Part shown: in pieces, positions 36,104-58,049 of the stretch | Numbering within the stretch: position 1 is the first letter of the stretch | How the letters are laid out: each line of letters opens with the position of its first letter | Program-made: the position numbers and the translations under genes | Assembly (NCBI GenBank): GCA_017415765.1 | Contig: JAFQED010000064.1 | Location: 17,381-81,380 of the forward strand | Direction of reading: 5' to 3' | Length of the DNA: 64,000 nucleotides | Origin: Desulfovibrio sp. | GTDB taxonomy: Bacteria; Desulfobacterota; Desulfovibrionia; Desulfovibrionales; Desulfovibrionaceae | Notes under the pieces: generated by a model | Databases searched by the model: none | Seen by the model: the letters and a program-made list of their open reading frames with translations, nothing else | What the model was told of the DNA's origin: nothing

Positions 36104-36979
36104 ATGAAACTCTGGATATTGCTGCCCGCATACAACGAAGAGGCGTCACTGCCGCGGCTTTTCCCTCGCATCAGGGAAGCCTGCACGGCGCAAGGGTTTG
36201 ACTGGCAGATCGTCGTGCTTGACGACGGCAGCACGGACGCCACTTGGGAATGCTTGCAGGCCATGCGCGAAGAATATCCCCTCATCCCCCTGCGCCATGC
36301 CGTCAACAGGGGGCTGGGCGAAACTGAAAGGGACATCTTTGAATACGCGGCTGCCAATGCCGCCCCCGACGACGTGGCCCTGCGCCTTGACTGCGACGAC
36401 ACGCACGATCCCTGTTTCTTCCTCTCCATGGTACGGAAGCTGGAAGAAAGCGGCGCGGATGTGGTGGTGGCCTCGCGCTTTCAGCAGGGCGGCGGGCAGG
36501 ACGGTGTGCACGGCTACCGCCTGCTGCTGACCATGGCCGCCAGCCTGTACATGCGCATGCTGTTTCCCATCAAAAACATTCGCGACTATTCCTGCGGCTT
36601 CCGTGCCTACCGTATCCGCATCCTCCAAGATGCCATAGAAATTTTCGGCAACAATTTCATTCAGATGAAGGGGCTCGGCTTCACGTCCACCCTAGAGACC
36701 ATCGTCAAGCTGAACCTGCTTGGCGCCCGTTTCCGGGAAGTGCCCTTCCTGCTGCACTACGCCCGCAAGGCCAGCCCCAGCAAGATGCTCTCAAGCATAA
36801 CCACCCTGGGCTACATGATCATGACCGTGTTGCACTGGTGGCCGCTCGGCGGCTGGCGCGCCGCGTACAAGGGGCTGGCCGACCACTACCGCCGGGACGC
36901 GGCCGGAGCCGTTGCAGCCTTCAGAAAAGGCAACCGCAAGCTGCCGCTCTTCTCCTCCATCGGCGGCGGCGGCGTCTAG
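36104..36979 (+). CDS. Family 2 glycosyltransferase (dolichyl-phosphate-mannose-synthase-like)
   Basis: A 291-residue GT-A enzyme. It begins MKLWILLPAYNEEASLPRLF and has QIVVLDDGSTDATWE (nucleotide binding), the metal-binding acidic motif RLDCDDTHD, and a C-terminal region rich in hydrophobic residues (LGYMIMTVLHWWPLGGW). It resembles DPM1/GtrB-type enzymes that load a sugar onto a polyprenyl phosphate or extend a lipid-linked glycan. The ATG at 36104 has AAGGAG at ideal spacing. It is the first gene after the AT-rich leader, followed by asnB after 44 bases. Donor and acceptor cannot be told from sequence. Confidence 0.9.
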   Translation: MKLWILLPAYNEEASLPRLFPRIREACTAQGFDWQIVVLDDGSTDATWECLQAMREEYPLIPLRHAVNRGLGETERDIFEYAAANAAPDDVALRLDCDDTHDPCFFLSMVRKLEESGADVVVASRFQQGGGQDGVHGYRLLLTMAASLYMRMLFPIKNIRDYSCGFRAYRIRILQDAIEIFGNNFIQMKGLGFTSTLETIVKLNLLGARFREVPFLLHYARKASPSKMLSSITTLGYMIMTVLHWWPLGGWRAAYKGLADHYRRDAAGAVAAFRKGNRKLPLFSSIGGGGV

Positions 36980-37023
36980 GCTCTCATGGTCGCGCGCACA
37001 AACCACCCGGGAGGTCACGGCAC

Positions 37024-38934
37024 ATGTGCGGCATAGCAGGCATCTTCGGCGGTTCCCTGCCGCGCGCGCCGCGCCGCGCCGCCACGGAAGCCATGCTGCA
37101 GGCCATCGCGCACCGCGGGCCGGACGGGCAGGGCCTGGAAGCGGAAGACGGCTGGAGCCTGGCACACTGCCGGCTGGCCATCATCGCGCCCGGAGAGGGC
37201 GCCCAGCCCATGTGGTCGCCCGACGGGCGCTACTGCCTTGCGTACAACGGGGAAGTCTACAACTACGTGGAACTGCGCCAACAGCTTGAGACGGAGGGCG
37301 TGACTTTCGCCACGGGCACGGACACCGAAGTTGTGCTGCAGCTCCTCATCCGGTCCGGCACGGCGGGGCTGCGGCGCTGCAACGGCATGTTTGCCCTGGC
37401 CCTGTATGACACGCGGACAAGAACCCTGCTGCTCGCCCGCGACCATTGCGGCATCAAGCCGCTCTATTACGCGCCGCTCGCCGACGGCGGCATCGCCTTC
37501 GCCTCGGAAATCAAGGCGTTGTTCCACTGCCCCGGCTGCCGCCCCGAGGCTGACCGCGAAAGCCTGAACGCCTATCTGGTCTTCCAGTTCTGCCTGGGCG
37601 ACAAGACCCTGTTCAAAAATATCTTCAAGCTGCCGCCGGGCCATGTGCTGCTCCATGCGGAAGGCGAGGGGAACCGCACGCAGCCTTGGTACCGGCAGGA
37701 CACGTCGCTCGACATCTACCACAACGAGACGTATTTTGTGGAGGCGCTGCGGCACCATCTGGAGCGTTCCGTGCAGCGGCAGCTGCGCAGTGATGTCCCT
37801 TTGGGAGCGTATCTCTCCGGCGGGCTTGATTCCAGCATCGTCGCCACGCTCGCTGCCCGGCACAGCAGAAATTTTTCCTGTTTTACCGGTTACTTCACGG
37901 AATCCCCGGCCTACGACGAAACGCGCTACGCAAAAGCCGTCTGCGATGCCACAGGCGTCAATCTGCATGCCGTGGCGCCTTCCGAACAGGATTTCGTTGA
38001 CTGGATGCCGCGCATCATCAGGGCCATGGACGAACCCGTGGCGGGACCCGGCGTTTTCCCCCAGTTTCTTGTTTCCCGGCTGGCCAGCCGGCATGTCAAG
38101 GTCTGCCTCGGCGGGCAGGGCGGCGACGAGCTGTTCGGCGGCTATGCCCGTTACTTGGTGGCCTACCTGGAGCAGGCCCTCAAGGGAGCCATTTTCGAAA
38201 CGCAGTCGGAGGGCCGGTTTGTCGTCACGCTGGAGTCCATCGTGCCCAACCTGCCAGTGCTGCGCCAGTATGTGCCCATGCTCCGGCAGTTCTGGCAGAG
38301 CGGCCTGTTTGAAAGCGCAGACCGCCGCTACTTCGCCCTGCTCAACCGCGCCCCCCATATCCTGCCGCTGCTGACGCCCGAGCAGCAGCGCAACCTGGAC
38401 ATGGAAGGCCTGTTCAGCCGGTTCGCCGAATTGTTCAACGGCGCGGGCAGCATGTCCGGCATTAACCGCATGCTGCATGTGGACCAGCAGACCCTGCTTC
38501 CGGCCCTGCTGCGGGTGGAAGACCGGGCGAGCATGTACTCCGGCCTCGAATCGCGCGTGCCGCTGCTGGACCCGGAAATCATGCGCCTGGCCGTGAGCAT
38601 CCCCCCGACCATCAAGTTCAAGGGAGGAAAGCTGAAAAACGTGCTGCGCGAGGCCGTGGCGCCCTTTATCGTCCCGGAGGTGCTGCGCCGCAAGGACAAG
38701 ATGGGCTTCCCCGTGCCGCTGGGCGAGTGGATGCGACGCCCGCCTGTGCGCGACTTCGTCTGCGACATTCTCCTGTCCCGGCGCAGCAGGCAGCGCGGCA
38801 TCTACAGCCTTCAGGCGCTGGAAAACCTTGCGTGCACGGACGACAACGGCAGCCGACGCGCTCTCTGGGGCGCGCTGTGTCTGGAGTTGTGGCATCAGAC
38901 ATTTATTGACAATCTGTCCGCCGACGCGTGTTGA
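37024..38934 (+). CDS. asnB: Asparagine synthase (glutamine-hydrolysing) family amidotransferase
   Basis: A 636-residue AsnB-type enzyme. The N-terminal glutaminase begins MCGIAGIFGG with the catalytic Cys2, then IAHRGPDGQG and CLAYNGEVYNY. The synthetase domain has the PP-loop LSGGLDSSIVATLA, the QGGDELFGGYARY motif and the C-terminal KFKGGKLKNVLREA. In glycan loci such enzymes often amidate sugar acids or substrates other than aspartate, so that role is as likely as asparagine supply. GGGAGG precedes ATG 37024. The last 99 codons are duplicated 2375 bases downstream (see repeats). Confidence 0.92.
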   Translation: MCGIAGIFGGSLPRAPRRAATEAMLQAIAHRGPDGQGLEAEDGWSLAHCRLAIIAPGEGAQPMWSPDGRYCLAYNGEVYNYVELRQQLETEGVTFATGTDTEVVLQLLIRSGTAGLRRCNGMFALALYDTRTRTLLLARDHCGIKPLYYAPLADGGIAFASEIKALFHCPGCRPEADRESLNAYLVFQFCLGDKTLFKNIFKLPPGHVLLHAEGEGNRTQPWYRQDTSLDIYHNETYFVEALRHHLERSVQRQLRSDVPLGAYLSGGLDSSIVATLAARHSRNFSCFTGYFTESPAYDETRYAKAVCDATGVNLHAVAPSEQDFVDWMPRIIRAMDEPVAGPGVFPQFLVSRLASRHVKVCLGGQGGDELFGGYARYLVAYLEQALKGAIFETQSEGRFVVTLESIVPNLPVLRQYVPMLRQFWQSGLFESADRRYFALLNRAPHILPLLTPEQQRNLDMEGLFSRFAELFNGAGSMSGINRMLHVDQQTLLPALLRVEDRASMYSGLESRVPLLDPEIMRLAVSIPPTIKFKGGKLKNVLREAVAPFIVPEVLRRKDKMGFPVPLGEWMRRPPVRDFVCDILLSRRSRQRGIYSLQALENLACTDDNGSRRALWGALCLELWHQTFIDNLSADAC

Positions 38935-38968
38935 CGCCTTCGGGGGAAACGCATGAGAGAGAGAGAGA
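38638..38968 (+). repeat. 331-bp direct repeat, copy 1 (asnB 3' end + SD + ATG + GA tract)
   Basis: The last about 297 bases of asnB, the following 18-base gap, the ATG of the acyltransferase gene and the first 14 bases of its GA tract recur at 41013-41343 at a constant offset of 2375. I count 5 mismatches by eye. The copies lie in direct orientation on both sides of the acyltransferase gene. Confidence 0.95.
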
Positions 38969-40929
38969 GAGAGAACAAATATCGCCCCGATATTGACGGT
39001 CTTCGAGCGCTGGCCGTGCTGCTTGTCGTCGGCTACCACGCTTTTCCCGGTAAAATACAGGGCGGTTTTATAGGTGTAGACATATTTTTTGTTATCTCCG
39101 GTTATTTGATCACCTCTCTATTGATAGATGACACCATAAATAACAGATTCAGCATTATCACTTTCTATAACAGGAGGATCAGAAGACTTTTACCAGCTCT
39201 TATTACAGTCCTTATAGCCATACTCATCTTCGGGTATTTTGCACTTCTCCCAATTGAATTAAAAAATTTAGGAAAGCATATTTTTGGCGGTTCATTTTAC
39301 ATATCAAATTTCATTCTTTGGAATGAATCCGGATATTTTGATATAGAAGCAACCCTCAAACCATTATTGCATCTCTGGTCGCTCGGTGTGGAGGAACAAT
39401 TTTATATATTTTTCCCATTTGTTATATTTATATGCACAAAATATAAATTACGGATATTTAATCTAATATTTATACTATGCTTATTCTCCTTTTTTTGTTT
39501 ATGTTATACAGATCAAATTTCAGCTTTTTATTCACCAATTTCTAGAGCATGGGAGTTGCTTTCCGGAGCTAGCTTAAGCGCAATTCAGCGGCAGAAAAAT
39601 ATAAATTTAACAGCAACAAAGCATCGATCAACATTTTATAAAAACATAGATAACATAATATCAAGTTTAGGAATTCTCTTAATTTGCATTGCTGTTTTTG
39701 TGACTAATAGCAAAAAACCATGGCCCAGCTTTTTAACACTATTGCCAATATGTGGTTCTTTATTTATCATAGCTTCAGGAAGAAATGCCCTGATAAATAA
39801 ATTTTTTCTCTCAAATAGAATTGCAATATTTATAGGACTCATCTCTTACCCTCTATATTTATGGCACTGGCCTTTATTATCATTTTACTATATTATTCAC
39901 GGCGATCTTGGTTCACAATCTCGCTTACTTCGTATTGGAATTGTTCTCATTTCATTTCTTCTTGCCACCGTTACATATTATTTTATAGAATATAAAATCA
40001 GATTTAAATATAAAAATAAAACAATCCCAATATCATTACTCATAATCTTAACTGTTATAGGGCTTTCAGGAATCGCCATATACTTCTCAGATGGAATGTA
40101 TAATAGAGATAACATAAAGAAATATCTTGATTTTTCAGTTCAGCTCAAACCTTATATCCCTTATGATATGTCATGGAAAGGATATTTATCTGATGGAACT
40201 GGCTTACATTTTTGTAAATTTAAGGATACAGGAACATCACACACCGTCGCTATTGTTGGAGACAGTTTTGCCGGACATACATTTCACGGTTTAGCCTTAT
40301 TGGGAGAGAAATACAAGTTCAATACATTGTTGCTAGGTCGATTCGTACCGGGTGGAGAACATTTTGACCACGATCGCTCAGGGAAGTATAATGAACGGAT
40401 TATATCGATTTTAATTGAGAAAAAAGATATAGATAAAGTATTTTTATGTTTTCGTGGAATGTCATATATTGATGCAACAGATATTACACTAGGGTATAAA
40501 ACCTATAAAATTGATTACGGCAAGCCCATCGGCGACACCTTTTTTTCAGAGCTCCAAAAATATGTCAGTCTCTTAAATAGACATGGGAAAAAAGTTTATA
40601 TTGTTTCTGAAATCCCAACGCTTCCGGATAAAATCTATCATTATATTGATAGACCATTTAAAATCCTTGGTAATTTTCCGAATGATTTTCCAAAATTCAC
40701 TAAAGATGACGTAATAAAATATCAGAAAAAATATTTGTATGGTCTACAGAATATAAAAAATGCAACAATAATTCCAACTATAGAGAAAATGTGCAATCTC
40801 AACGAATTAAATGAGTGTCTCGTTTTCACTGCTGGCGGATTGCCGACAAGATATGACAACGCACATCTGTCATTTATCGGGAGCGAATTATTTGCAGAGA
40901 CAATATTGCTTCCCTATATTCTAGATTAA
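38953..40929 (+). CDS. O-acyltransferase (acyltransferase-3 + SGNH), AT-rich inserted gene with a phase-variable start
   Basis: A 658-residue membrane enzyme of the OafA/OatA type that acetylates a surface sugar. Residues 1-12 are the GA-tract peptide MRERERENKYRP, then IDGLRALAVLLVVGYHAFPG (with the catalytic His), GVDIFFVISGYLITSLL and about ten TM helices to residue about 380. The C-terminal SGNH domain has the Ser in VAIVGDSFAGHTFHG and the Asp/His in DNAHLSFIG. The gene is far more AT-rich than asnB, and the composition changes exactly after the GA tract, so it is clearly foreign. It is flanked by the 331-bp direct repeats. The SD is GGGGGAAACGC; the copy 2 version is GGAGG. Confidence 0.92.
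   Translation: MRERERENKYRPDIDGLRALAVLLVVGYHAFPGKIQGGFIGVDIFFVISGYLITSLLIDDTINNRFSIITFYNRRIRRLLPALITVLIAILIFGYFALLPIELKNLGKHIFGGSFYISNFILWNESGYFDIEATLKPLLHLWSLGVEEQFYIFFPFVIFICTKYKLRIFNLIFILCLFSFFCLCYTDQISAFYSPISRAWELLSGASLSAIQRQKNINLTATKHRSTFYKNIDNIISSLGILLICIAVFVTNSKKPWPSFLTLLPICGSLFIIASGRNALINKFFLSNRIAIFIGLISYPLYLWHWPLLSFYYIIHGDLGSQSRLLRIGIVLISFLLATVTYYFIEYKIRFKYKNKTIPISLLIILTVIGLSGIAIYFSDGMYNRDNIKKYLDFSVQLKPYIPYDMSWKGYLSDGTGLHFCKFKDTGTSHTVAIVGDSFAGHTFHGLALLGEKYKFNTLLLGRFVPGGEHFDHDRSGKYNERIISILIEKKDIDKVFLCFRGMSYIDATDITLGYKTYKIDYGKPIGDTFFSELQKYVSLLNRHGKKVYIVSEIPTLPDKIYHYIDRPFKILGNFPNDFPKFTKDDVIKYQKKYLYGLQNIKNATIIPTIEKMCNLNELNECLVFTAGGLPTRYDNAHLSFIGSELFAETILLPYILD
38955..38974 (+). repeat. 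(GA)10 tract in the acyltransferase start
   Basis: Ten GA units begin at the G of the start ATG and encode alternating Arg-Glu. The current length is in frame with the conserved NKYRPDIDGLRALAV. One unit fewer leads to TGA 8 codons after the tract, and one more also meets an early stop, so the gene is switchable and presently ON. Confidence 0.95.
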
Positions 40930-41012
40930 AACATCAAATTGCTGAAAGATGTAACACCTTACGAATATGAAATACTTGACATAATAAAGAGATTTTTTAT
41001 ATACTATTCTTT

Positions 41013-41309
41013 AACGTGCTGCGCGAGGCCGTGGCACCCTTTATCGTCCCGGAGGTGCTGCGCCGCAAGGACAAGATGGGCTTCCCCGTGCCGCTGGGCG
41101 AGTGGATGCGACGCCCGCCGGTGCGCGACTTCGTCTGCGACATTCTCCTGTCCCGGCGCAGCAGGCAGCGCGGCATCTACAGCCTTCAGGCGCTGGAAAC
41201 CCTTGCGGGCACGGACGACAACGGCAGCCGACGCGCTCTCTGGGGCGCGCTGTGTCTGGAGTTGTGGCATCAGACATTTATTGACAATCTGTCCGCCGAC
41301 GCGTGTTGA
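41013..41309 (+). pseudogene. Duplicated 3' fragment of asnB
   Basis: This piece encodes the last 98 or so codons of AsnB (VLREAVAPFIVPEVLRRKDK ... IDNLSADAC) with only a few changes (for example ENLACTD becomes ETLAGTD). It has no N-terminal domains, glutaminase or PP-loop. The junction with the AT-rich upstream DNA is abrupt at 41012/41013. It is not a functional gene but one arm of the direct repeat. It carries the better ribosome site (GGAGG) for the methyltransferase gene that follows. Confidence 0.93.
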
Positions 41310-41327
41310 CGCCTTCGGAGGAAACGC

Positions 41328-42183
41328 ATGAGAGAGAGAGAGAATGTCCCTATCACAACGGTTCGGGATTTCTGGGACAGCAACCCCCTGTTCGCGGGCG
41401 AAGGAGCCGGAGAGCCGGGTACGCGCCCATGGTTTGAGCAGCATGAAAGGGTGCTCGCCGCAGATTGCCTTGCGGATGAACGGGCACTGTCATTTGTGAC
41501 GCAGGATGTGCGCAAAGACGCATGCATCTTGGATGTGGGCTGCGGCCCGGGATTCTGGGTGCGCTTTTTCCTCCGCCGCGGCTTCCAGCGCGTATGGGCC
41601 TGCGACCTGACGCCGCAGGCGGTGCGGCTCACACGAACAAGCCTGGACATCTTCGGCTTGCGCACGGAAGGAACCATTCAGGAAGGCAACGCGGAACAAC
41701 TGCCGTATGAAGATGCGACATTCGACCATGTCAACTGCCAAGGCGTCATTCACCACACTCCGGATACTGAGCAGTGCGTGCGCGAATTTTTCCGCGTCCT
41801 GAAACCGGGGGGGACAGTGTGTTTTTCCGTCTACTATAAAAACTTCATTCTGCGCCATCCGGCCTTGTTCCGCACCGTGCAACGCGCTCTTTCATCCCTT
41901 GTCGGCCTCAAGGGGCGCGGACGGGAGGCAATGCTGCGCGACGCAAAGAATGCGGAGGACATGGTTCGCCTGTTATGACGGCGCTGACAATCCCATCGGC
42001 AAGGCCTACACTCTGGATGATGTGCTGCGCATGGTGCGGGCGACCGGCCTTATCCCGCTTGGGCATCGCCGCAGCTTTTTCCCGGCGCGAGCCATTCCCC
42101 TCCCCGTGCCGCGCCAGCTGCACCGTCAGCTTGACCGCCATTGCGGTCTGCTTGTCATGGTGAGGGCCTATAAGCCTTGTTGA
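41328..42183 (+). pseudogene. SAM-dependent methyltransferase with a 1-base frameshift near its end
   Basis: The first frame (41328-41978) starts MRERENVPITTVRDFWDSNP. It has the SAM-binding motif ILDVGCGPGFWVRFFLRRGF, the acidic motif region, NCQGVIHHTPDTEQCVREFF and LKPGGTVCFSVYY, a class I methyltransferase. It stops early at TGA (41976). A second frame (+1) continues the same protein: YDGADNPIGKAYTLDDVLRM to KPC at 42183. Removing one T of TTAT near 41973 would give a continuous MVRLYDGADNP. The catalytic domain is complete, so the truncated form might still be folded. The start carries a (GA)7 tract, in frame. The frameshift is not in a simple repeat. Confidence 0.82.
41330..41343 (+). 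repeat. (GA)7 tract at the methyltransferase start
   Basis: Seven GA units overlap the G of ATG 41328-41330 and read MRERE. In the present length the tract is in frame with VPITTVRDFWD (ON up to the later frameshift). Confidence 0.93.
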
Positions 42184-43466
42184 CGACAGCTTTTTCGGCG
42201 GCAGCCCTGCGCAATGACGCGCTTGCCCAGTGCGGCCGCTACTGGCCCGTGGGCAGCGAGCCAGTGGCCGCTCTGCCCATGCCCGCGCCTGCGGCGCTGC
42301 CGCAGGAGGTTTTGCCGCCGCGCCTGGTCATGGTGCGCCTGCCCGAATTTGCGGAGGATGTGGGCGTGGCCGGCGCGCTGGCCGTACCGCAACACTACTG
42401 CCCTGCTTCTGGCCGATGGACGGATGTGGACTGGCTTTGCGTCATGGGCTGGTTCCTCCACAACCTGGCCGAGCGTGCCCACGAGGACGCCCATGGCCCC
42501 ATACACTCCTACAGCTTCCGTCTGCACGGCTGGGACGAACGCATCTGGAAGCACGCCTGGGTCAACCGCGCAGCCCTGTTCCTACGGCGCTGGGCGGCGG
42601 AAACGGCAGGCAGGCCGGAAGAAGAACTGCTTGGCCCCATGCCCGCGGCGGAAATCCGGCTGACGCACGATGTGGACGCCATCCGCAAGACATTCGCCAT
42701 CCGGGGCAAGCAAAGCGCTTTCCTGCTGTTCAACGCCGCACGCCGTGCGCTGCACGGTCGTCGGCGCGAGGCGCTTTCCTGTCTGCGCAAGGCCCTGCGC
42801 TTCTTTTTCACGCCCGGGGACGACTGGGGCTTCGAACGCATAGCCCGGCTGGACGAGGCCCATGGGCTGACCGCCACCTTCCTTTTCGCCGGTTGCCCCG
42901 CGCCGCCGCCGTGGAAGGATTTCCGCCGCTGGCTCATAGACCCCCAGTACGACGTGGCCGCGCTGGCGGGACGCATTGCGGCGCTGCGTCATGCGGGGCA
43001 TCGCGTCGGCCTGCACCCGTCGGTTGCCGCCTGGCGCGACGCAGACAGACTGCGCGCAACGGCGGAACGCGTGGCTGCGGCGGCAGGCGGCCCTATCACC
43101 GTATGCCGCCAGCACTGGCTCATGTTCTCCTTCGCGCGCACATGGGCCGCGCAACAGCAGGCCGGCATAACGGAGGACTGCACCCTGGGCTTCAACGACA
43201 GGTCGGGCTTCCGCAACGGCGCGGCGCTGGCCTTTACACCGGCGGGCTCATTTGGTAGTTACCGTGCATGGCCGCTGGCCCTCATGGATTCCCATCTCCA
43301 CGACTACGCAACCTGCCCGGAGGCGGCTCAAAAAACGACCTTGCACATCCTGAAAGAGCTGTGGGCGACAGGCGGGCAGGCGACAATTTTGTGGCATCCG
43401 CACACCATTTCCAACGATTACGGCTGGCAGACGACGTATAATTTTTTATTGAACCGACTGCAATAG
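42177..43466 (+). CDS. Polysaccharide deacetylase-like protein
   Basis: A 429-residue protein of the NodB-like type found in glycan loci. A roughly 150-residue N-terminal region (GWFLHNLAERAHEDAHGPIH; WDERIWKHAWVNRAALFLRR) precedes a metal-site motif EIRLTHDVDAIRKTF (HDVD). Then come TATFLFAGC, HRVGLHPSVAAW and TEDCTLGFNDRSGFRNGAAL and the final LHILKELWATGGQATILWHP. It probably removes an acetyl group from an N-acetyl sugar. The start is TTG at 42177, overlapping the end of the methyltransferase frame; GAGGG lies 11 bases upstream. Its 3' end is partly repeated at 45120-45254. Substrate unknown. Confidence 0.82.
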   Translation: MLTTAFSAAALRNDALAQCGRYWPVGSEPVAALPMPAPAALPQEVLPPRLVMVRLPEFAEDVGVAGALAVPQHYCPASGRWTDVDWLCVMGWFLHNLAERAHEDAHGPIHSYSFRLHGWDERIWKHAWVNRAALFLRRWAAETAGRPEEELLGPMPAAEIRLTHDVDAIRKTFAIRGKQSAFLLFNAARRALHGRRREALSCLRKALRFFFTPGDDWGFERIARLDEAHGLTATFLFAGCPAPPPWKDFRRWLIDPQYDVAALAGRIAALRHAGHRVGLHPSVAAWRDADRLRATAERVAAAAGGPITVCRQHWLMFSFARTWAAQQQAGITEDCTLGFNDRSGFRNGAALAFTPAGSFGSYRAWPLALMDSHLHDYATCPEAAQKTTLHILKELWATGGQATILWHPHTISNDYGWQTTYNFLLNRLQ

Positions 43467-43502
43467 TGAAGGAGCGAGCTATGCAGGAGAGAGAGAGAGA
43501 GA
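43368..43502 (+). repeat. 135-bp direct repeat, copy A (deacetylase 3' end + SD + ATG + GA tract)
   Basis: The last about 100 bases of the deacetylase gene, the gap, the start codon of the radical SAM gene and its GA tract recur at 45120-45254 at a constant offset of 1752. I count 9 mismatches (about 93% identical), so this duplication is older than the 331-bp one. Confidence 0.93.
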
Positions 43503-44812
43503 GTATCCGTGAATATTTGATATCTAAAGATATAGTGTTGAATAATGTACCAGAAATTTTACTTCCAGCTATCAAACAAATGGTTGATGAAGGTGACCAT
43601 TTTTACCTTTCATCAAACAATTATAATAGATATCATGGAGAAAAAATATTCTATTCTTATTCTTATCTCGTGTCGGCAGATCCATGGTCTGCATATTCAA
43701 AAAAGGATGAGAATTATATCCAAGAAGAAGTTACCCCTAATCAGCAACGATATATTGCTGCGGCCCTTTTCAATCCATCATCAATAAAAACTTGGTCTAT
43801 ACATTTGACGCCTTTTTGCAATATAAGCTGTCCAATGTGTCCATTTCACGGCAAAGAAGGAGATGCATATAAAGCTGAAAGAAAAAAAATGTTTGTTACT
43901 GTTCCACTTGAAACAGCATTTGAACGCATAAAAAAGATCGCTGATTTTGGTGCTACACATTTATCGTTAACGCCTTTAGGTGAACTATTTATGTACAAAC
44001 ACTGGCGTGAGGTTATTAAATATGCCAAGGAACTTGGACTGCATGTCGGCTTTACCAGTAACGGCACGCTGTTGACAAGAGAGCGCTGCCGAGAGCTTGC
44101 CGAACTTGGCATTGATTCTCTCACACTAAGTATTGATGCTATAAATTTTGATACATATGCCAAAGTTCATTCCTCCAAAAAAGAGTATTATGAAACAGCT
44201 ATTAACGCACCAGAAACATTAAGAGAATTCAACATTGAGACAGGCGTTCATTTTGTACGCCAGCCTGAGAACTTAAAAGATGAAAATGAATTTATCAATT
44301 ACTATACAAACAAAGATTTCTCCGTTGGAGTTGGAGAATACCTAGAATTTATTGATGGTAAATTGCTTCGGATCAAAAGAGAGGAAAAAATATCAAATCC
44401 AACAAACACATCATCGAGTTGCAACAACTACCAGCCGATCATTCAACCAGATGGTAAAATTGTTTTTTGTTGTGCGTTAAATCACTTCCAGTTTGATGAC
44501 AACAGATTTAATATCATTGAACATCCGCATGTAGACGATGGTATCGAACATGCTGTCGCTTGGTTTAAGAAACATTATATTTGTGAGAAAACGTTTGACA
44601 GCATCTGCTCTACATGTGCACTCTGGGATACACTTGCATATACACAATACACGATGAACGGAATTGATTGCAAAAAAGCGCGTACGAATCAGACATATAA
44701 TAAGTCCGTCGGTCTTATGAAAAAATGGAAAAGCCGTCTTGTTCATGCTATCTATGACCCACGATGGGCTGTTCACAAGCTGAAAGAACATATTAACAAA
44801 TTACTGGACTGA
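43481..44812 (+). CDS. Radical SAM protein with SPASM-like C-terminus, phase-variable start (ON)
   Basis: A 443-residue enzyme. The cluster motif CNISCPMC (C-x3-C-x2-C) lies at about residues 111-118. It is followed by THLSLTPLGELFMYKHWREV (GxE-like), GFTSNGTLLT and LTLSIDA, all typical of radical SAM barrels. A C-terminal Cys set (SCNNYQPIIQPDGKIVFCCA, then CEKTFDSICSTC) suggests auxiliary clusters of the SPASM type. Radical SAM/SPASM proteins in glycan loci modify sugars or peptides; the reaction is unknown. ATG 43481 follows GGAG and is followed by the GA tract (MQERERES). It is AT-rich from the tract onward. A second, broken relative lies at 45233-46545. Confidence 0.85.
   Translation: MQERERESIREYLISKDIVLNNVPEILLPAIKQMVDEGDHFYLSSNNYNRYHGEKIFYSYSYLVSADPWSAYSKKDENYIQEEVTPNQQRYIAAALFNPSSIKTWSIHLTPFCNISCPMCPFHGKEGDAYKAERKKMFVTVPLETAFERIKKIADFGATHLSLTPLGELFMYKHWREVIKYAKELGLHVGFTSNGTLLTRERCRELAELGIDSLTLSIDAINFDTYAKVHSSKKEYYETAINAPETLREFNIETGVHFVRQPENLKDENEFINYYTNKDFSVGVGEYLEFIDGKLLRIKREEKISNPTNTSSSCNNYQPIIQPDGKIVFCCALNHFQFDDNRFNIIEHPHVDDGIEHAVAWFKKHYICEKTFDSICSTCALWDTLAYTQYTMNGIDCKKARTNQTYNKSVGLMKKWKSRLVHAIYDPRWAVHKLKEHINKLLD
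43487..43502 (+). repeat. (GA)8 tract in the first radical SAM gene
   Basis: Eight GA units (plus a G) start two codons after ATG 43481 and read ERERE. The current length is in frame with SIREYLISKD (ON). GC-rich DNA ends and AT-rich DNA begins here. Confidence 0.93.
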
Positions 44813-45119
44813 TAAATTTCTCAATCGGTTATGACTTATTGATGAATGTCTCGGGCATATCTTAACCCCCACAAGTTTACAGCCGTACTAAAATTTGCGC
44901 TTGATGTTTATAGCAGAAATTCCTTGGAAAGTCGGCGTGTTTTAAGGTGAGGGTTAGCACTTGCTGTCTGAACAGCATAGAGCGGCAATGCTTACATTGT
45001 CTACGCTTTGTACAGTGACGGAGTGTAGGCGATATATGGTCTTGATACCGCTGGACATTGGCTAATTTACGTACTTCGTATGGATCCCTATCTACGTGGT
45101 ACGCAACCGCTTCAGGAAC
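44813..45119. other. Spacer of 307 bases with no recognisable gene
   Basis: This stretch lies between the first radical SAM gene and the 135-bp repeat. A 92-codon minus-strand frame (45155-44877) overlaps the repeat and resembles nothing I know. I see no promoter, terminator or IS end that I can support; it may be debris from the insertion. Confidence 0.5.
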
Positions 45120-45254
45120 ACAGGCGGGCAGGCGACAATTTTGTGACATCCGCATACCATTTCCAACGATTACGGTTGGCAGGCGACGTATAATTTTTTA
45201 TTGAACCGACTGCAATAATGGAGAAGCAAGCTATGCAAGAGAGAGAGAGAGAGA
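45120..45254 (+). repeat. 135-bp direct repeat, copy B
   Basis: Matches 43368-43502 (see that entry). In this copy the deacetylase reading frame is broken by a TGG to TGA change, so only the translation start of the next gene is still meaningful. Confidence 0.93.
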
Positions 45255-46545
45255 TTACAAGAGCAGGGCGTCGCTCTTAATAATATCCCCGATGCATTAA
45301 TTCCGGCCATAACGCAACTTGCTGAGAATAACACACCTTTTTTATCACAAATACTAATTTTGACATCATTGACAATAATCACGTCCAGTATATTTGCTGT
45401 GACAGTGCATGGAAAGCCACAAGCTGGAGTGCCGCTTTTTTGCTGGAATCCGCGCCGCCGTCCGTCAGCGCAGAAGTGGGGGAGGCATTGGCTGTGGCCA
45501 TGCTGCAATCTTACAAACCAACATCATGGTCTCTGTTGCTTGATTGGCGCTGCATCTATACATGCCCCATGTGTCCGTTCCATGGCGAAGGCTATACCGG
45601 AGATTATTGGAAAAACAGACAGAAGCAGCGGACTGTCGTGCCATTGGAAACAGCAAAATGGCGCATAGACCTATTGAAACACTACGGAGCCTCACATCTG
45701 TCGCTCATCTCCTCTGGAGAGATATTTTTATATCCCTATTGGAAGGATGTTGCAGACTATGCGAAAGATCTTGGCTTCTCACTAGGAACAACTACAAATG
45801 GTGCCATGATTACGCCAGAGCTTTGCCAAGAGCTTATTAAGCATGGGTTCACAAATATTTCTGTCAGTCATGATGCTATAACATTTGAAACATATAAACA
45901 AGTTCGTTCCGCAGACAGAAAGAATTTTGAAGCTGCCATGAAAGCGCCAGAAATGCTTACGGACGCTGGCCTTAAAGTAAATGTACATTTTGTACAGCAA
46001 GATGCCAATATCCATGAAAAACAACAATATATTGATATGTGGAAAAATCAAATATTGATTCATTCTCAATCGGATCACAGACAATATACAATGAGGATGG
46101 CTCATGCTCAAAACGAGACACATCAAATGATATTTTCATTCAACCACTTTGCTCTTGGTTTGGTAGTTATTGTATTCATGTCGATGGGACAGTTTCGCTC
46201 TGTTGTCAATCGCAAACGCTTATAGATGACACAAACTCATATGGCATAGATTTTCCTAATATAGACGAAATTCAGGATGCCGAGACGGTAGTTAAAAAAC
46301 TTCATGCCCTGATGTGCCATTCCTCACTGACACCGTATTGTAAAAAATGCGGCTTATATTCACTACGGAAAAATCCCGTTTGGAATATTTCTCCAAAATG
46401 GAAGCATCTTAAAAACGATACTGACCTTGATATTTGGGAACGTATTCATCCGTACAGCGATCTCTGTGAATACTTAAAACTACACAGACCAAAGGCATTC
46501 CAGATACTGCAAAAATGCAAACATATGCTGCTGGGAAACGCATAG
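45233..46545 (+). pseudogene. Second radical SAM gene, phase-OFF and frameshifted
   Basis: A relative of the gene at 43481: LNNIPDALIPAITQ parallels LNNVPEILLPAIKQ, CIYTCPMCPFHG carries the cluster motif, and SHLSLISSGEIFLYPYWKDV and LGTTTNGAMIT match the barrel. Reading from ATG 45233 meets TAA at 45278-45280 because the GA tract is one unit short (or two too long). Two further shifts lie in homopolymers: T6 near 45338 and A5 near 46040, each one base short. With all three mended the frame would run to 46545 (LLGNA). It is either decayed or silenced by several slippage sites. Confidence 0.85.
45239..45254 (+). repeat. (GA)8 tract in the second radical SAM gene (OFF)
   Basis: Eight GA units follow ATG CAA. 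Nine would read AGA TTA CAA GAG CAG into the homologous N-terminus; eight gives ATT ACA AGA GCA ... TAA. Confidence 0.92.
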
Positions 46546-46564
46546 CCTTTGCCAAGAGGAAACG

Positions 46565-47338
46565 ATGAAAAAGACAACTTACCCAACCATTGTTCCCTTA
46601 CTCCCTGCGGCGTGGCAAAAGGTTCTTTTCGGTGATAGAAAAGCAGAGAGAGAGAGAGACCCGGATTGGCTTGAGTGGCAGCGTTGCTACCTGGCGTTTT
46701 ACCAAAACACGCAGAAAGCCGGCATAGGGCAAGTGGTCAATAATGCAGGCTACAACATTCTGCGAGGATATGACTTCACCGGGTTGCGCTGTCTGGAAAT
46801 CGGCCCCGGCATCCTGCCTCACATGCGCTTCTGGCGCGGCAGGCCCGCATGCTACGATATCGCCGACATCCAGAAAGATCTTTTGGACGCCTCCCGGACA
46901 ATTCTGGACAGGGCGGGGGTGCCCGGGATGGCCATGCTGCTGCCGGAGCGTGCGCAGGCGGGCATTTCCGCCCCTGACGCCTCCTATGACTGCATTCTCT
47001 CTTTTTACAGCCTCGAGCACCTGTCCCCCCTGGATGCGCACCTGAAAGAGTATCACCGCCTCCTGCGGCCCGGCGGCATGCTGGTTGGAGCCATCCCGGC
47101 CGAGGGAGGGCTGGCGTGGGGGCTGGGACGAATGCTGACATCCCGGCGCTACGCGAAAAAGCACTTCAGTTATGATTTTGACAAAATCACCGCCTGGGAG
47201 CATTGTAACACCGTCGGCAGCATCCTGCGCGCCTGTGACGCGCTTTTCCGGCAGGGACTCCTTGAATTTTGGCCCTTGCGCGCTCCGCTTGTCTATATAA
47301 ACCTTGTTATCCGCTTCAAATACCGAAAGGCCGCATGA
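46565..47338 (+). CDS. Class I SAM-dependent methyltransferase with an internal GA tract (ON)
   Basis: A 257-residue methyltransferase. Motif I is LRCLEIGPGILPHMRF, with CILSFYSLEHLSPLDAHLKE and LLRPGGMLVGAIPAEGG further along. The first 26 residues (MKKTTYPTIVPLLPAAWQKV...) precede the GA-encoded KAERERD, after which DWLEWQRCYLAFYQN begins. GAGG precedes the ATG at 46565. It is GC-rich except for the first 80 bases, so its 5' end may have been joined from AT-rich DNA near the tract. The stop overlaps the next start (ATGA), so it is coupled to the gene at 47335. Acceptor unknown, probably a sugar. Confidence 0.85.
   Translation: MKKTTYPTIVPLLPAAWQKVLFGDRKAERERDPDWLEWQRCYLAFYQNTQKAGIGQVVNNAGYNILRGYDFTGLRCLEIGPGILPHMRFWRGRPACYDIADIQKDLLDASRTILDRAGVPGMAMLLPERAQAGISAPDASYDCILSFYSLEHLSPLDAHLKEYHRLLRPGGMLVGAIPAEGGLAWGLGRMLTSRRYAKKHFSYDFDKITAWEHCNTVGSILRACDALFRQGLLEFWPLRAPLVYINLVIRFKYRKAA
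46646..46659 (+). repeat. (GA)7 tract inside the methyltransferase gene
   Basis: Seven GA units at codons about 28-32 read AERERD in the present frame. It is the only tract far from the start codon that is ON. Slippage would truncate the protein after about 35-60 codons. Confidence 0.92.
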
Positions 47339-48876
47339 CCCCCATAGCCGCCCAAGTTGCCCACACCCTGCCGCGCGTCCTGTCGCTTTTTGACAGAGAC
47401 CCGCGCAGCGCATGCTATGGCATTGGCGACAGGCAGCATGTCTCCTGGTGTACCAAAGACTATGCCAACGGCACGCAGCAGGCTTTGGCCCACGGCCTGG
47501 CCCGCCTGCTGCATGACGGCGCGCTGCCCCCGTTCTGCCCCCCCGGGCAGGCGTCCCGCGTTGTGGAAAGCGCGTTTGCCGGCCTGGCGCGCATTACGCG
47601 CAGCGATGGCAGCCTAGAAGAGGCCTTCCCCTACGAAAGCTCCTTTTGCGTCACTGCGCTCGGCCTGCATGACCTGCTGTGGGCGCACCGCCTCTGCCCG
47701 CCGGACACCCCGGCCACGCGGGCGCGCCGCCTGGCCGCCCTCGCGCCGCTGGCGCGCTTCCTCCTGCGCGCCGACGAGCGACACGGCTTCATTTCCAATC
47801 ACTTGGCCACGGCGGCGGGCGCGCTCTACCTCTGGCATGCGGAAACGGGCGACGCTGCGGCGGAACGCTGCGGCGGGCTGCTGCTCCGGCGCATCCTTGA
47901 GCATGCCTCCCCCGAGGGCTGGTTTCGAGAATATGACGGCGCAGACCCCGGCTACCAGAGCCTCTGCCTGCACTATCTCGCCCTGCTGCACGTCGCCCGG
48001 CCGGATCTCGGACTGATGCCGCACCTGTGCCGGGGCATCGACTTCCTGACGCATTTCGTCTTTCCCGACGGTTCGTTCGGCGGCATTTTCGGCAGCCGCA
48101 GGACGCGCTTCTACTATCCCACGGCCGCGGCGCTGCTTGCCGAATCCCATCCCCCGGCCGCTGCGCTGCATGCCGCCATGTCGGCCTCCATCGCGGCCAT
48201 GAACTGCGTCACCCTAGCCTGCATGGATGACGACAATCTGGCGCCCATGTTCAATGCCTACGCCTGTGCGGCGTCCATTTCGGTTCCGCAGGAGACCGGG
48301 GCCCTGCCCTGCGCCGCGCCCGCGCCCCTGCGTCGCTTTCCCGGGGCTGGCCTCGCCGTCTACAATACGACGGCGCACTATACGGTTGTTGCCGTGGGTC
48401 TGGGGGGCGCCTATGAAAGCGCCTCCAAGGTGGACGGGAGCCATATGACGGACGGGGGGAGCCTGCTTCGGCGCGGCGATCGGCTCTGGAGTACGCAATG
48501 CCGTGACCCGCAAGCGACGGCGTTGCTCTCGGACGACGGACTGGATGTCACCTGCCGCGCCGTCAGGGTGCTGCGCCGCCGTCCCGCCCCTTTGCAGCTG
48601 CTCTGCCTGCGCCTGCTGGCCATGACCGTCATGCGTGTGCCCGCGGTGTCCCGCCTGATCAAACGCCTGCTGGCTTTCCTGCTCATGGGCAAAAAAAGTT
48701 TTCATCCGGTCGCCATCCGACGGCGCATCGACATGAGTGGCGGGCGCCCTGCCGTCACGGCAGCACCGGTCGGCCCCTTGCCGTCGGGCACGGTCTTCGA
48801 GGCACAGGGCGGCACAAGTCTTTCCATCCACATGGCTTCTGCGGGCTACTGGCAGCGCACGGAGGCGCAAGAATGA
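47335..48876 (+). CDS. Unrecognised 513-residue protein, alpha/alpha-toroid-like
   Basis: I do not recognise a named family. The N-terminal 330 residues are helical and Trp/His/Tyr-rich with recurring segments (TKDYANGTQQALAHGLARLL; FISNHLATAAGALYLWHAET; REYDGADPGYQSLCLHYLAL; PDGSFGGIFGSRRTRFYYPT). This looks like an (alpha/alpha) barrel as in glycoside hydrolases, heparinase-like lyases and similar sugar enzymes. The C-terminal part is beta-rich (YTVVAVGLGGAYESASKVDG). It overlaps the methyltransferase stop (ATGA) and its own stop overlaps the DegT start, so it belongs to the same glycan operon. A sugar lyase, hydrolase or epimerase role is a guess from fold and place. Confidence 0.6.
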   Translation: MTPIAAQVAHTLPRVLSLFDRDPRSACYGIGDRQHVSWCTKDYANGTQQALAHGLARLLHDGALPPFCPPGQASRVVESAFAGLARITRSDGSLEEAFPYESSFCVTALGLHDLLWAHRLCPPDTPATRARRLAALAPLARFLLRADERHGFISNHLATAAGALYLWHAETGDAAAERCGGLLLRRILEHASPEGWFREYDGADPGYQSLCLHYLALLHVARPDLGLMPHLCRGIDFLTHFVFPDGSFGGIFGSRRTRFYYPTAAALLAESHPPAAALHAAMSASIAAMNCVTLACMDDDNLAPMFNAYACAASISVPQETGALPCAAPAPLRRFPGAGLAVYNTTAHYTVVAVGLGGAYESASKVDGSHMTDGGSLLRRGDRLWSTQCRDPQATALLSDDGLDVTCRAVRVLRRRPAPLQLLCLRLLAMTVMRVPAVSRLIKRLLAFLLMGKKSFHPVAIRRRIDMSGGRPAVTAAPVGPLPSGTVFEAQGGTSLSIHMASAGYWQRTEAQE

Positions 48877-50072
48877 TTCCCCGCCTGCGCCCGCGCCTGG
48901 GCCTCCCCGAATTGCTGGCCGCCCTGCGCCCGGGGGACGACGCTCAGGCCGTGACCGAGTTTGAACAAGCCTTTGCGGATATGACCGGCCAGCGCCACGC
49001 CGTGGCCTTTCCCTATGGGCGTACAGGGCTGTATTGCCTGCTCAAGGCGCTAGGACTGCGCAACAGCATGGTCGTCACGCCGGCCTGGACCTGCGTGGTC
49101 GTGCCGCACGCCACGGTGAGCAGCGGCAATGAGCCGGTCTTCGTCGACAGCGCCCCCGGCGACTACAACATGGATCTGCGCCGTGCCGGCGAAACGCTGG
49201 ACGAAACCGACGCGGGCGCGCTCATCGCCACATCGATTTTCGGCCACCCCGTGGATCTCGACGCGCTGGAAGCCCTGCGCCGCACGCATCCCGGCGTCTG
49301 CATTATCCAGGACTGCGCGCACTCCTTCCTGTGCGAACACGGGGGGCGCCCCGTACATGCATACGGCGATGCGGCCGTGTTCGGCCTTAATGTCAGCAAG
49401 CTCATGTCTTCCATTTTCGGGGGGATGGTGGCCACCGACGACGACACGCTGGCCGCACGCCTGCGCAACGAACGAAGCAAGACGCTCAGCCCGGCCCCCT
49501 GGCGCAAGGCATGGAGCCGGCGCATCTATCTGGCGGCGTCCATGCTCGCGCTCTGGCCGCCGGCGTACAGCGCCGTGAACTTGCTTGAACGCAGCGGCGC
49601 GCTCGGCCGTTTTGTCAGCTACTACGACGAGGGGCGCATCGACATGCCCGCTGACTGGGATGTAGCCATGACCGCCCCGGAAGCGAGGGTCGGCGTCGTC
49701 CAGTGCGGGCGATACACCAGCATCATCGCCAACCGCCGGCGCAATGCGGCGGCCTATACGGAAGCCCTGCGGCACATCCCCGGCATCACCCTACCGCCGC
49801 ACGATGATGGGGCCACATGGTCGCATTACACCATCCTTGTGGACAGGCGCGAGGCGCTGCTTGACCGCGCATTGCGTGCGGGCATACAGTTGGGCCGACT
49901 TATCGAATACAACATTCCCGACATGCCCGCCTACCGCGCCCGGCCCGGCTACAGGGACTGTCCGCGGGCCCGCAGGCTTGCGGAGCACAGCGTCAACCTC
50001 CCTGTCTGGTGCGGCCCACGGGATGTACAACGCGTCATTGATTTCCTGAAAAATACAATGGGACACTATTGA
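48873..50072 (+). CDS. DegT/DnrJ/EryC1/StrS-type aminotransferase
   Basis: A 399-residue PLP enzyme of the sugar aminotransferase family. Visible marks are HAVAFPYGRTGLYCLLKAL (phosphate-cup region), TPAWTCVVVPHATVSS, IIQDCAHSFLCEHGGRPVHA with the cofactor Asp, and GLNVSKLMSSIFGGM with the Schiff-base Lys. It normally moves an amino group from glutamate onto a 3- or 4-keto sugar nucleotide. It overlaps the upstream stop by 4 bases and ends 1 base before the formyltransferase gene. That suggests an amino sugar is made here and then N-formylated by its neighbour. Confidence 0.87.
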   Translation: MIPRLRPRLGLPELLAALRPGDDAQAVTEFEQAFADMTGQRHAVAFPYGRTGLYCLLKALGLRNSMVVTPAWTCVVVPHATVSSGNEPVFVDSAPGDYNMDLRRAGETLDETDAGALIATSIFGHPVDLDALEALRRTHPGVCIIQDCAHSFLCEHGGRPVHAYGDAAVFGLNVSKLMSSIFGGMVATDDDTLAARLRNERSKTLSPAPWRKAWSRRIYLAASMLALWPPAYSAVNLLERSGALGRFVSYYDEGRIDMPADWDVAMTAPEARVGVVQCGRYTSIIANRRRNAAAYTEALRHIPGITLPPHDDGATWSHYTILVDRREALLDRALRAGIQLGRLIEYNIPDMPAYRARPGYRDCPRARRLAEHSVNLPVWCGPRDVQRVIDFLKNTMGHY

Positions 50073-50073
50073 A

Positions 50074-50707
50074 ATGAAAAATGCCAGCATACTCTGCATC
50101 ACCAGCGACGATGCCTGGGGGGCGCAGGCCGCCCGTCTGGCGTCCCGCTACCCCAATGTTCTGGTGGCCCGCGATGCGCGCTCGCTTTCCGCATCGCGCG
50201 CGCTGAAGCTGCTGTTCAAGAGAGAGAGAGAGAGAGAGAACGTTGCGCCTCTCGGTGGTGCTGCGACAGCTTGCCGCCATGCTGCAACGCGTCAAGGAGC
50301 CCTGCACCTTTGACGCAGGCGTCGCCAGCAGCGCGGATATCCTGCGCATCTGCCGGGCCGAGGCAATCAAGGCGGTCGTCCTCTACCGCGCCGGCATCTA
50401 CATCAACCGCCAACTGCTGGAAGCCGTGCCGCAGGTGTTCAACATCCACTGCGCGGACATATACCGCTACGGCGGGCTGAATGCCATCGGACGCATACGG
50501 GCCGACAGGGAGCGCCGCCAGTGGGCGACCCTGCACCGTGTCACGCCGCGCATTGACGAGGGGCCGGTGATTGCCCTGAAGGAATACCGCCTCAATCCGG
50601 CCATGGCCTATTGCAGCATGGAGGATGTGGCCTATCGCGCCGGCCTTGAGCTGCTGGAAGGTTTTTTTAACGCATATACGCAAGGTTTCTCCCCGAAACT
50701 GGAATAA
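50074..50707 (+). pseudogene. Formyltransferase family gene, phase-OFF through a GA tract
   Basis: Frame 1 gives MKNASILCITSDDAWGAQAA and 48 residues of a Rossmann-like start, then KRERERE from the GA tract, then a shifted tail ending at TGA 50314. Frame 2 continues the real protein from just after the tract: TLRLSVVLRQLAAMLQ, VFNIHCADIYRYGGLNAI (the N-x-H-x(n)-P/Y-x-x-G formyltransferase motif), RIDEGPVIALKEYRL, and a stop at 50707. One GA unit more (or two fewer) joins the halves into a protein of about 210 residues. The family uses 10-formyl-THF to formylate amino sugars; the substrate is probably the neighbouring aminotransferase's product. Confidence 0.88.
50220..50239 (+). repeat. (GA)10 tract inside the formyltransferase gene (OFF)
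   Basis: Ten GA units at codons about 49-55, in GC-rich DNA on both sides. Eleven would restore the frame, and nine or ten would not. The tract lies between the nucleotide-fold start and the catalytic half. Confidence 0.94.
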
Positions 50708-50708
50708 C

Positions 50709-51672
50709 ATGATGAAACAAGGTTTGCTTTTCCAATCAAGATTGCTGTGGGATATTTTATCAGAAGTGTACAATTTACATTATGAGATAATCTCATATAA
50801 GGGCTCTGAAATTCCGGTATTTCATCCAAAAAATAAACTTGCAAAAAAATATATACAAATGCTCCATATATGTTCTATGATTTTATTCCAGATGAGTATC
50901 GCAAAAATGCAGGAGAAGAGATAAAATTTTTGTTAAAAAATCAGTCATCGTATAATTATATACATAAAACATGTGTAAATATTAATGAATATACGAATAA
51001 AATAGAAGAAGGAATAATTTCATTTATAAATATTGCGCCACATAGCTTTGATTCATATATAAAAGAATTATCAAAAAAACATTGCCAAAACATACGAACA
51101 GCTGAAAATAAAATAAAAAAAAATAAATATTATGTGATATGTGAAGCGACAACAGAAACTGAATTGCATAGGATTTACGATCTTCTTGCAATAACATATG
51201 CAAAAAACATCGTATGTTTTTTCATCCATACAAATTATTTTTGTTATTATTCAAGAATAATGTAATTAATGCACATTATATCGAGGATCGCGCGAATTCG
51301 TCGATAATGAATGCAATCATAACTGCTCACGACTCATACACAATGCATTACATGTGGGGAATGAACAATCCACAATATTATCGCTTGTCGTTAAGTCATA
51401 TTTTATTAAAAAACATGATTGAGGAAGCTTTTGCTCGAAACCTACGCTATGTCTCATTTGGTTCAACTTCTTTATCTGACACAAATTTACTGGCTTTTAA
51501 AACAAAATGGAAGTGCGCTCATACTCCAATATATGCATACTATACCAAAGAGCGTCCCCTTGTTATTGATGTTGAATCAAGCTATAAATTTTTGCGTAGA
51601 ATATTTTTTTCTCTTCCTGTCCCATTTTTAAAAAAGCTTATGCCAAAAGCCTTACAAATACTCGTTCAATAA
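50709..51672 (+). pseudogene. FemAB/GNAT-like acyltransferase broken by two frameshifts
   Basis: Three consecutive frames together make a FemAB-like protein. The first (MMKQGLLFQSRLLWDILSEV to AKK) is the N-terminal domain; the second (YTNAPYMFYDFIPDEYRKNA to KNIVCF) and third (FHPYKLFLLLFKNNVINAHY to ALQILVQ) are the rest. MHYMWGMNNPQYYRLSLSHILL and AFARNLRYVSFGSTSLSDTN are the family's C-terminal hallmark. The shifts fall in A7 near 50846 and T6 near 51218, each one base short. It is very AT-rich. Such enzymes transfer aminoacyl or acyl groups. It lies between two formyltransferase genes. It may be decay or homopolymer error. Confidence 0.78.
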
Positions 51673-51693
51673 TAGCTCCTAAAGGAGAAGTAC

Positions 51694-52434
51694 ATGCGTG
51701 TTGCAATTATTACAGGAACAGGAGAAGCCTCAATCAAAAGCTGCAATCGTCTTGTGGAGCTGTTGAAGGACGAGGCAGACACGTTTATTGTGCAAGAGAA
51801 ATCACTCACGATGAAAAAAATTTGTCATATTATATTAAAAAGAATAAAAAGTAAAGGGTTTATAAATGCATTAGGAATGATTTTTGGTTATTTATTTGGC
51901 ATGCTACAACCATCTAAAAAAATAGATCCTACATACACAATAAATTACAAAACAACAGCTATCAATAAAGATGTTTGCGCTGAAACTAAAATATGCGAAT
52001 TCACTGCGGACTATATTGTTACAATAGGATGCTCGCTACTGAAAAAAACATTACTCAATAAGCTAAACACTCCGATCATTAATATCCATCCTGGTATCAA
52101 TCCAAGATATAGAGGGGCTGGAAATGTTTGGGCCTGCTTTGATAACGATTTTTCGACAACTGGCGTAACTATACATAAAATTGATGCGGGTATTGATACA
52201 GGCGAGATCATTTCAAATAGATTTATCGATTTTAAGCAAGCTAGAATTAATTTTGTAAATATGAATGCTATTTGTATGGAAGAAGGAAGCTATCTTGTTT
52301 ATGATTTTTTATGCCAAAATAAAAAGAGCATTGATATAGATGTAACAAAATTACAAAGTAATTTTAGAGGTTTTCCGACATTTTTTGAAATACTAAAAGC
52401 GAAAAATAATTTTCAAAAAAATAAATTAGTATAA
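51694..52434 (+). CDS. Formyltransferase family protein (sugar N-formyltransferase-like)
   Basis: A 246-residue AT-rich gene whose product has the family catalytic motif: TPIINIHPGINPRYRGAGNV (Asn, His and the HPGxxPRYRG loop) followed by GVTIHKIDAGIDTGEIIS with the catalytic Asp. The N-terminus (MRVAIITGTGEASIKSCNRL) is a Rossmann-like start. It lacks the C-terminal domain of methionyl-tRNA formyltransferase, so an amino-sugar substrate fits better. AAAGGAG precedes the ATG. It is intact despite several A6 runs, and it lies in the AT-rich block with the broken FemAB-like gene. A second, phase-variable formyltransferase lies 1 kb upstream. Confidence 0.85.
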   Translation: MRVAIITGTGEASIKSCNRLVELLKDEADTFIVQEKSLTMKKICHIILKRIKSKGFINALGMIFGYLFGMLQPSKKIDPTYTINYKTTAINKDVCAETKICEFTADYIVTIGCSLLKKTLLNKLNTPIINIHPGINPRYRGAGNVWACFDNDFSTTGVTIHKIDAGIDTGEIISNRFIDFKQARINFVNMNAICMEEGSYLVYDFLCQNKKSIDIDVTKLQSNFRGFPTFFEILKAKNNFQKNKLV

Positions 52435-52548
52435 CCATGATATTATACTAGTAAGTGTGACAATTAGCTACATATTTATACAATTAAATTATATGTTCAT
52501 AAAAACAGTCATCGCATAGACTGCATTACTAACTCTGGGTACTTGCCT

Positions 52549-54444: not shown

Positions 54445-54576
54445 TTTCTGGTGTATTTTGTTTTTTACCTTATGTGACACACAGGCCTCTCCTTGCAGAG
54501 GGAGCTGATAAACGTGCATTTCGATGTACTGTTAACCTACATTAGGTGAATTACTTGTCAGTAATAGGAGTTTATC

Positions 54577-58041: not shown

Positions 58042-58049
58042 GAATTCGC

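Follow-up and report, generated by a model that had tools for sequence, protein, structure and literature searches.

In Campylobacter and Haemophilus, phase variation of surface genes rests on simple repeats within or before genes for surface modification, with effects on the reading frame or the promoter (PMC6321876, PMC2651432). Here we describe a comparable locus in a Desulfovibrio genome, in which six genes of a predicted surface-polysaccharide cluster carry pure GA dinucleotide tracts and are probably subject to slipped-strand phase variation. Campylobacter uses mostly poly-G and Haemophilus mostly tetranucleotide repeats, whereas the Desulfovibrio locus has GA dinucleotides in coding sequence, belongs to a sulfate reducer, and would switch in a manner that we infer from its anatomy. 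The same AG unit is found in the coding region of the mod gene of Mycoplasma mycoides subsp. capri, where 12 units are out of frame and 10 units in frame, and activity follows the frame (PMC3498834). In contrast to the locus described here, that case concerns a single type III methyltransferase gene, of which two length-variant clones were found, and not a glycan cluster. The locus lies in a 64-kb stretch of DNA (C62:17381-81380), hereafter the window, and the coordinates below count from the first base of the window.

The first-pass annotation had reported six GA tracts, and all six were found exactly as placed, pure and 7-10 units long:
38955..38974, plus strand, (GA)10 tract beginning inside the ATG of the AT3-SGNH acyltransferase gene
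41330..41343, plus strand, (GA)7 tract beginning inside the ATG of the methyltransferase 1 gene
43487..43502, plus strand, (GA)8 tract at codon 3 of radical SAM 1
45239..45254, plus strand, (GA)8 tract at codon 3 of radical SAM 2
46646..46659, plus strand, (GA)7 tract at codon 28 of methyltransferase 2
50220..50239, plus strand, (GA)10 tract at codon 49 of formyltransferase 1

These are the only dinucleotide runs of at least five units in the window. The window was used to train Markov models of order 1, 2, 3 and 5, whose chance expectation for (GA)7, both strands included, is 0.00005-0.0002 in 64 kb and 0.0016-0.0067 in 2.1 Mb. When the whole genome was searched (2,103,166 bases in 74 contigs, 91% complete), 15 overlapping matches to (GA)7 or longer came up, which represent seven tracts, six of them inside this locus; the clustering anticipated in the first-pass annotation was thus observed. 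The seventh tract, at C43:7824, is unlinked to the locus and begins at codon 6 of a frame that stops after 16 codons, and the frame running on past it encodes a predicted membrane protein of about 490 residues with a match to PF09852 (DUF2079). The gene upstream, judged by eye, is presumably fliR. All seven tracts have GA on the sense strand, lie near the 5' end of a gene and measure at most 21 bp. With 7-10 units, each is above the cut-off of six units that PhasomeIt sets for dinucleotide repeats (PMC6321876).

The tract-bearing genes of the locus were assigned by protein family and reading frame, as follows:
38953..40929, plus strand, AT3-SGNH acyltransferase of 658 amino acids (PF01757, PF19040); tract in frame
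41328..42183, plus strand, methyltransferase 1 (PF08241 over the first 216 amino acids); tract in frame, extra frameshift near 41970
43481..44812, plus strand, radical SAM protein 1 of 443 amino acids (PF04055); tract in frame
45233..46545, plus strand, radical SAM protein 2 (PF04055 on an inner open reading frame, ORF); out of frame, stop after 15 codons
46565..47338, plus strand, methyltransferase 2 of 257 amino acids (PF08241/PF13489); tract in frame
50074..50707, plus strand, formyltransferase 1, a weak match; tract out of frame, stop after 79 codons

The match of formyltransferase 1 to PF00551 (E 1.4e-4, 22.1 bits) is under the cut-off of 26.1. Radical SAM 2, about 36% identical to radical SAM 1, contains at least two frameshifts besides the tract. 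Frame arithmetic gave the same result for all seven tract genes of the genome: a change in unit number shifts the downstream frame and truncates the product, with the extra frameshifts adding to this in two genes. Four of the seven are in frame; the three out-of-frame ones are radical SAM 2, formyltransferase 1 and the DUF2079 gene. Within the locus, the reported division into four ON and two OFF genes stood as a count of frames (four of the six in frame, three of these without other damage), whereas the ON state at 41330 and the OFF state at 45239 are not clean, because both genes have extra frameshifts outside the tract. Methyltransferase 1 and radical SAM 2 look decayed and pseudogene-like beyond the tract, and owing to these frameshifts at most five of the seven switches appear functional. 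The statement that four tracts fall within the first two codons was correct for the two genes whose tracts begin inside the ATG (starts at 38953 and 41328) and slightly off for the two with tracts at codon 3 (43481 and 45233).

We consider slipped-strand phase variation of surface-glycan decorators, acting as contingency genes, to be the best explanation for this arrangement, and a likely one. In this model, each decorator gene holds a pure GA tract in its 5' coding region, and replication slippage would add or remove 2-bp units. Two-thirds of the possible lengths would put the rest of the gene out of frame and cut the protein short beyond the tract, and one-third would leave the protein whole. 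Independent switching of several decorators and of the unlinked DUF2079 protein would then generate a clonal population with mixed surface chemistry, the benefit of which is probably bet-hedging against phage or host.

Since a GA tract encodes Arg-Glu whatever the frame, and since the tract lies beside the start codon in four genes, the repeat might instead be retained for its Arg-Glu peptide, or because a purine stretch near the start enhances translation, and not for switching. This alternative is hardly credible. Two of the tracts begin as far in as codons 28 and 49, and downstream of the tract the frame is broken in three of the seven genes. Moreover, arginine is encoded in the tracts exclusively by the rare codon AGA, compared to a share of 5.8% among the arginine codons of window ORFs of at least 900 bp, tracts included. 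The use of AGA as the sole arginine codon indicates that the repeat was made or kept as DNA, and selection for Arg-Glu repeats at the protein level was rejected on the same ground.

The surroundings of the tract genes mark a surface-polysaccharide cluster, as judged from Pfam and NCBIfam matches, and a decorated glycan is its predicted product:
34006..62202, plus strand, surface-polysaccharide cluster
36838..38934, plus strand, AsnB-like asparagine synthase (PF00733, PF13537); no tract

The other tract-free neighbors encode an ABC exporter, glycosyltransferases, a VimE-like deacetylase (labeled from an NCBIfam match far under its cut-off), two DegT aminotransferases, a second formyltransferase, a WbuX-family amidotransferase and a nucleotide-sugar epimerase/dehydratase resembling GDP-mannose dehydratase. 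As claimed, the backbone genes are without tracts of five or more units, and the neighboring glycosyltransferases are tract-free. By family, the products of the tract genes (acyltransferase, methyltransferases, radical SAM proteins, the weakly matching formyltransferase and the DUF2079 membrane protein) would act on surface structures. A GNAT/FemAB-like gene at 50870-51672 is split by a frameshift outside any repeat. The region 34000-52500 had no plasmid or phage match at the megablast level. Among 78 other genomes of the genus, the locus DNA matched solely in the asnB region, in two genomes, and at E 1e-20 radical SAM 1 had no match in the genus except its paralog in the same genome.

Length variation was assessed in relatives at syntenic tracts, defined by matches within 500 bp on both flanks with at least 90% identity. 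Unit numbers differed in all seven genome pairs available at five such tracts (18/21, 23/30, 19/21.5, 19/20, 21.5/20, 15/12 and 17.5/16.5 units); the 15/12 tract is located upstream of flagellin. The comparison, made between relatives and not within the species, comes closest to the check for fixed tract length proposed in the first-pass annotation.

Such repeats also exist outside this locus and this genome. Tracts of (GA)7 or longer occur in 34 of the 79 genus genomes, counting the present one, and are absent from the other 45, and (GA)8 or longer occurs in 67 of 288 family genomes, representing 15 of 44 genera. The small-genome genera are probably host-associated, as some record titles hint. 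Outside the home genus, (GA)8 or longer was found in 12 of 17 small-genome and 2 of 26 larger-genome genera (Fisher p = 3e-5, uncorrected for phylogeny), the two classes having been split by eye at a median of 3 Mb from rounded sizes uncorrected for completeness. Genome size is no simple predictor inside the genus, where the trend is non-monotone: among genomes at least 90% complete, such tracts occur in 1 of 11 at 3.4 Mb or more, 20 of 36 at 2.4-3.3 Mb and 1 of 8 below 2.4 Mb. Nor is GA the only repeat, although it is the main one, since (CA)7 is present in 14 of the 79 genomes. Long CA/TG tracts were seen in G014, G049, G054, G056, G078 and others, several of which are the smallest genomes of the genus, with few or no GA tracts. 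The combination of ribosome-binding site, ATG and (GA)7 occurs in at least 119 stretches of named genomes from many phyla, a lower bound and not a census.

Anchored patterns and fetched loci yielded 175 distinct tracts in the 34 genomes, counting once those with equal 20-base flanks, with a median of 17 and a maximum of 40 units, although unit numbers of long tracts are uncertain in short-read assemblies. By a home-made coding score, which is weak for AT-rich glycan genes and misassigned the strand of the first window tract, 78 of the 175 fall inside a scored frame or at its 5' end, and 29 at a 3' end. The coding strand of the 78 reads GA in 51 cases and TC in 27, so the sense-strand rule of the present genome fails genus-wide. 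In the single-contig genome G007 (G007:C1, 3.70 Mb), 21 of 26 GA tracts lie at 1.63-3.13 Mb, all on the plus strand, and the five outside are all on the minus strand, as if the pattern were tied to replication direction.

Downstream frames above the threshold numbered 63, and 30 of these, a non-random set chosen by score and interest, were scanned for domains; 22 had a Pfam family and 8 had none. The families include GGDEF or GGDEF/EAL proteins (L243, L280, L270, L057, L056), methyltransferases (L247, L250, L244, L061), solute-binding-domain proteins (L066, L281, L049), sulfatase-fold proteins (L234, L070), a UbiA-family protein (L050), a chemotaxis receptor (L295), and one each of saccharopine dehydrogenase, an outer-membrane efflux protein, a TonB plug, PPDK_N and DUF6056. 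In an Eco57I-type restriction-modification gene (L251, G026:C6), the coding frame contains two neighboring GA tracts, one of 34 and one of 8 units, which makes it a candidate switch for phase-variable methylation.

Ten further proteins were domain-scanned, flagellin-like ones among them, and flagellin domains were found in all five flagellin-like proteins scanned. A motif search placed 13 tracts 34-372 nt 5' of the first Met in 11 flagellin-like genes from five genomes; on the flagellin strand these tracts invariably read TC. The flagellin-linked GA/TC tracts are:
G070: L309, L306, L310, L312 and L313
G065: L293 and L297
G063: L256
G009: L271
G067: L096 and L299

The genome G070 has five flagellin-like copies, each with a tract. 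These tracts are comparable to the TA repeats upstream of the hifA/hifB pilus genes of Haemophilus influenzae, which also precede a surface-appendage gene (PMC2651432). Unlike the hifA/hifB repeats, they are placed by distance from the first Met.

Several lines of evidence thus support the phase-variation reading. The tracts are far above chance expectation, six of seven are clustered, in-frame and out-of-frame genes are mixed, and comparable classes of genes bear tracts in relatives; the unlinked seventh tract, the AGA-only codons, the tract-free glycosyltransferases and the syntenic length differences all fit as well. The proposal of the first-pass annotation that glycan decorators vary by GA slippage is therefore retained as the best reading, with the qualification that two of the genes are pseudogene-like and that the locus is not unique. 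Several observations weigh against it. Two of the six tract genes of the locus (methyltransferase 1 and radical SAM 2) carry extra frameshifts, so an out-of-frame gene need not be a reversible OFF state. The only syntenic tract scored as 5' coding, in a GGDEF gene (18/21 units), differs by three units, which keeps the frame. In relatives, 68 of the 175 tracts adjoin no scored gene. Finally, the genome has both mutS1 (E 8.9e-274) and mutL (E 5.8e-146), so no repair defect explains instability of the tracts; loss of mismatch repair was accordingly rejected as a cause in this genome. It may apply in some tract-bearing relatives, since G009 had no mutL match and G013 a weak mutS1 match only.

Some of these observations would also be expected if the tracts were neutral microsatellites in a decaying, recombining island, having expanded and been copied with their leaders, with the frame changes representing damage. 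The frameshifts outside repeats in two tract genes and in the split GNAT/FemAB-like gene, the relatives' tracts lacking a scored neighbor and the duplication of tract-bearing leaders described below all point in this direction. Nevertheless, no backbone gene of the same island has a tract of five units or longer, and of the six tract genes four are in frame, three of these being otherwise undamaged; the unlinked seventh tract likewise opens a membrane-protein gene. We regard the neutral explanation as unlikely.

Four of the tract genes are preceded by duplicated leaders:
38638..38954, plus strand, leader repeat 1, copy 1 (asnB 3' end, leader, ATG start), before the acyltransferase
41013..41329, plus strand, leader repeat 1, copy 2, before methyltransferase 1
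43368..43505, plus strand, leader repeat 2, copy 1 (end of the VimE-like deacetylase gene, leader, ATG, tract), before radical SAM 1
45120..45257, plus strand, leader repeat 2, copy 2, before radical SAM 2

The copies of repeat 1, derived from the asnB 3' end, share 98.4% identity over 317 bp, and those of repeat 2 share 93% over a stretch of 118-138 bp. In both pairs the identity reaches the tract and ends there. The genes that follow are unrelated in the first pair and encode proteins about 36% identical in the second; near-identical leaders before such genes indicate that the leaders arose after the genes behind them had diverged. The leader had no matches in viral contigs.

Shared DNA around tracts was compared across the genus using the 155 tracts flanked on each side by 400 bp or more. 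In-register shared DNA was found in 140 tract pairs, 33 of them on both sides. The outer ends of homology fell within 8 bp of the tract in 36 of 157 cases, compared to 0-7 in each of the other 20-bp bins within 160 bp, and 33 ends form a second, broader cluster at 680-819 bp on the right-hand side of the tract. These counts come from pairs that are not independent (about 11 families by eye); an N spacer biases homology ends toward the tract, and some joins are possibly misassemblies through long tracts. A separate analysis of pairs, likewise non-independent, gave 31 that were one-sided at the tract, 11 two-sided, 38 in which the other side matched again at a greater distance, and 1 unclassifiable. 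Flagellin paralogs and mobile-element ends (integrase, DotH/IcmK-like gene) explain many of the pairs; the two leader cases of the present genome involve tracts of at most 21 bp. Mobile-element DNA (integrase; DotH/IcmK-like) abuts GA tracts, with unrelated DNA opposite, at L263, L277, L256, L315, L318 and L101. In G063 and G019, about 1.5 kb on each side is 99.8-99.9% identical and joined differently, possibly through misassembly.

Tracts may thus act as recombination seams, a lead only and unproven. In its fuller form, the proposal is that GA tracts of small-genome Desulfovibrionaceae serve both as frame or promoter switches and as seams for gene exchange: leader, start codon and tract would stay in place while ORFs are swapped, and newly captured surface genes would be phase-variable at once. 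We put this forward tentatively, as possible but rather doubtful.

Assembly or sequencing error could in principle produce wrong tract lengths, leader duplications or frameshifts. The source assembly is fragmented and incomplete, as given above, some of the relatives' tracts lie at contig ends, and the locus has extra frameshifts. However, the tracts of this genome do not exceed 21 bp, long GA tracts occur in the single-contig genome G007 too, and the leader copies differ by several bases and are therefore not one sequence doubled by the assembler. An artefact is very improbable.

In open-access full texts we found no description of repeat-driven phase variation in the Desulfovibrio group, most subscription papers being outside this scope. 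Phase variation is mentioned solely with DNA methylation in the part of PMC12579266 covered here, the terms 'Desulfo' and 'dinucleotide' are both absent from a 2025 review (PMC11868660), and 'Desulfovibrio' is absent from the main text of a paper surveying prokaryotic sequence patterns (PMC4060949). The mechanism is known; its presence in this taxon, and its breadth across it, appear undescribed within the literature searched.

Phase variation through repeats is familiar chiefly from a small number of pathogens, and a sulfate-reducing genus with GA tracts in 34 of 79 genomes offers a comparative system. Slippage-based diversification of surface glycans, flagella and cyclic di-GMP signaling becomes testable in these bacteria, and the tract loci are candidates where strains differ in phage sensitivity or colonization. 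If it is true that the tracts are recombination seams, this would explain how genes come to be phase-variable.

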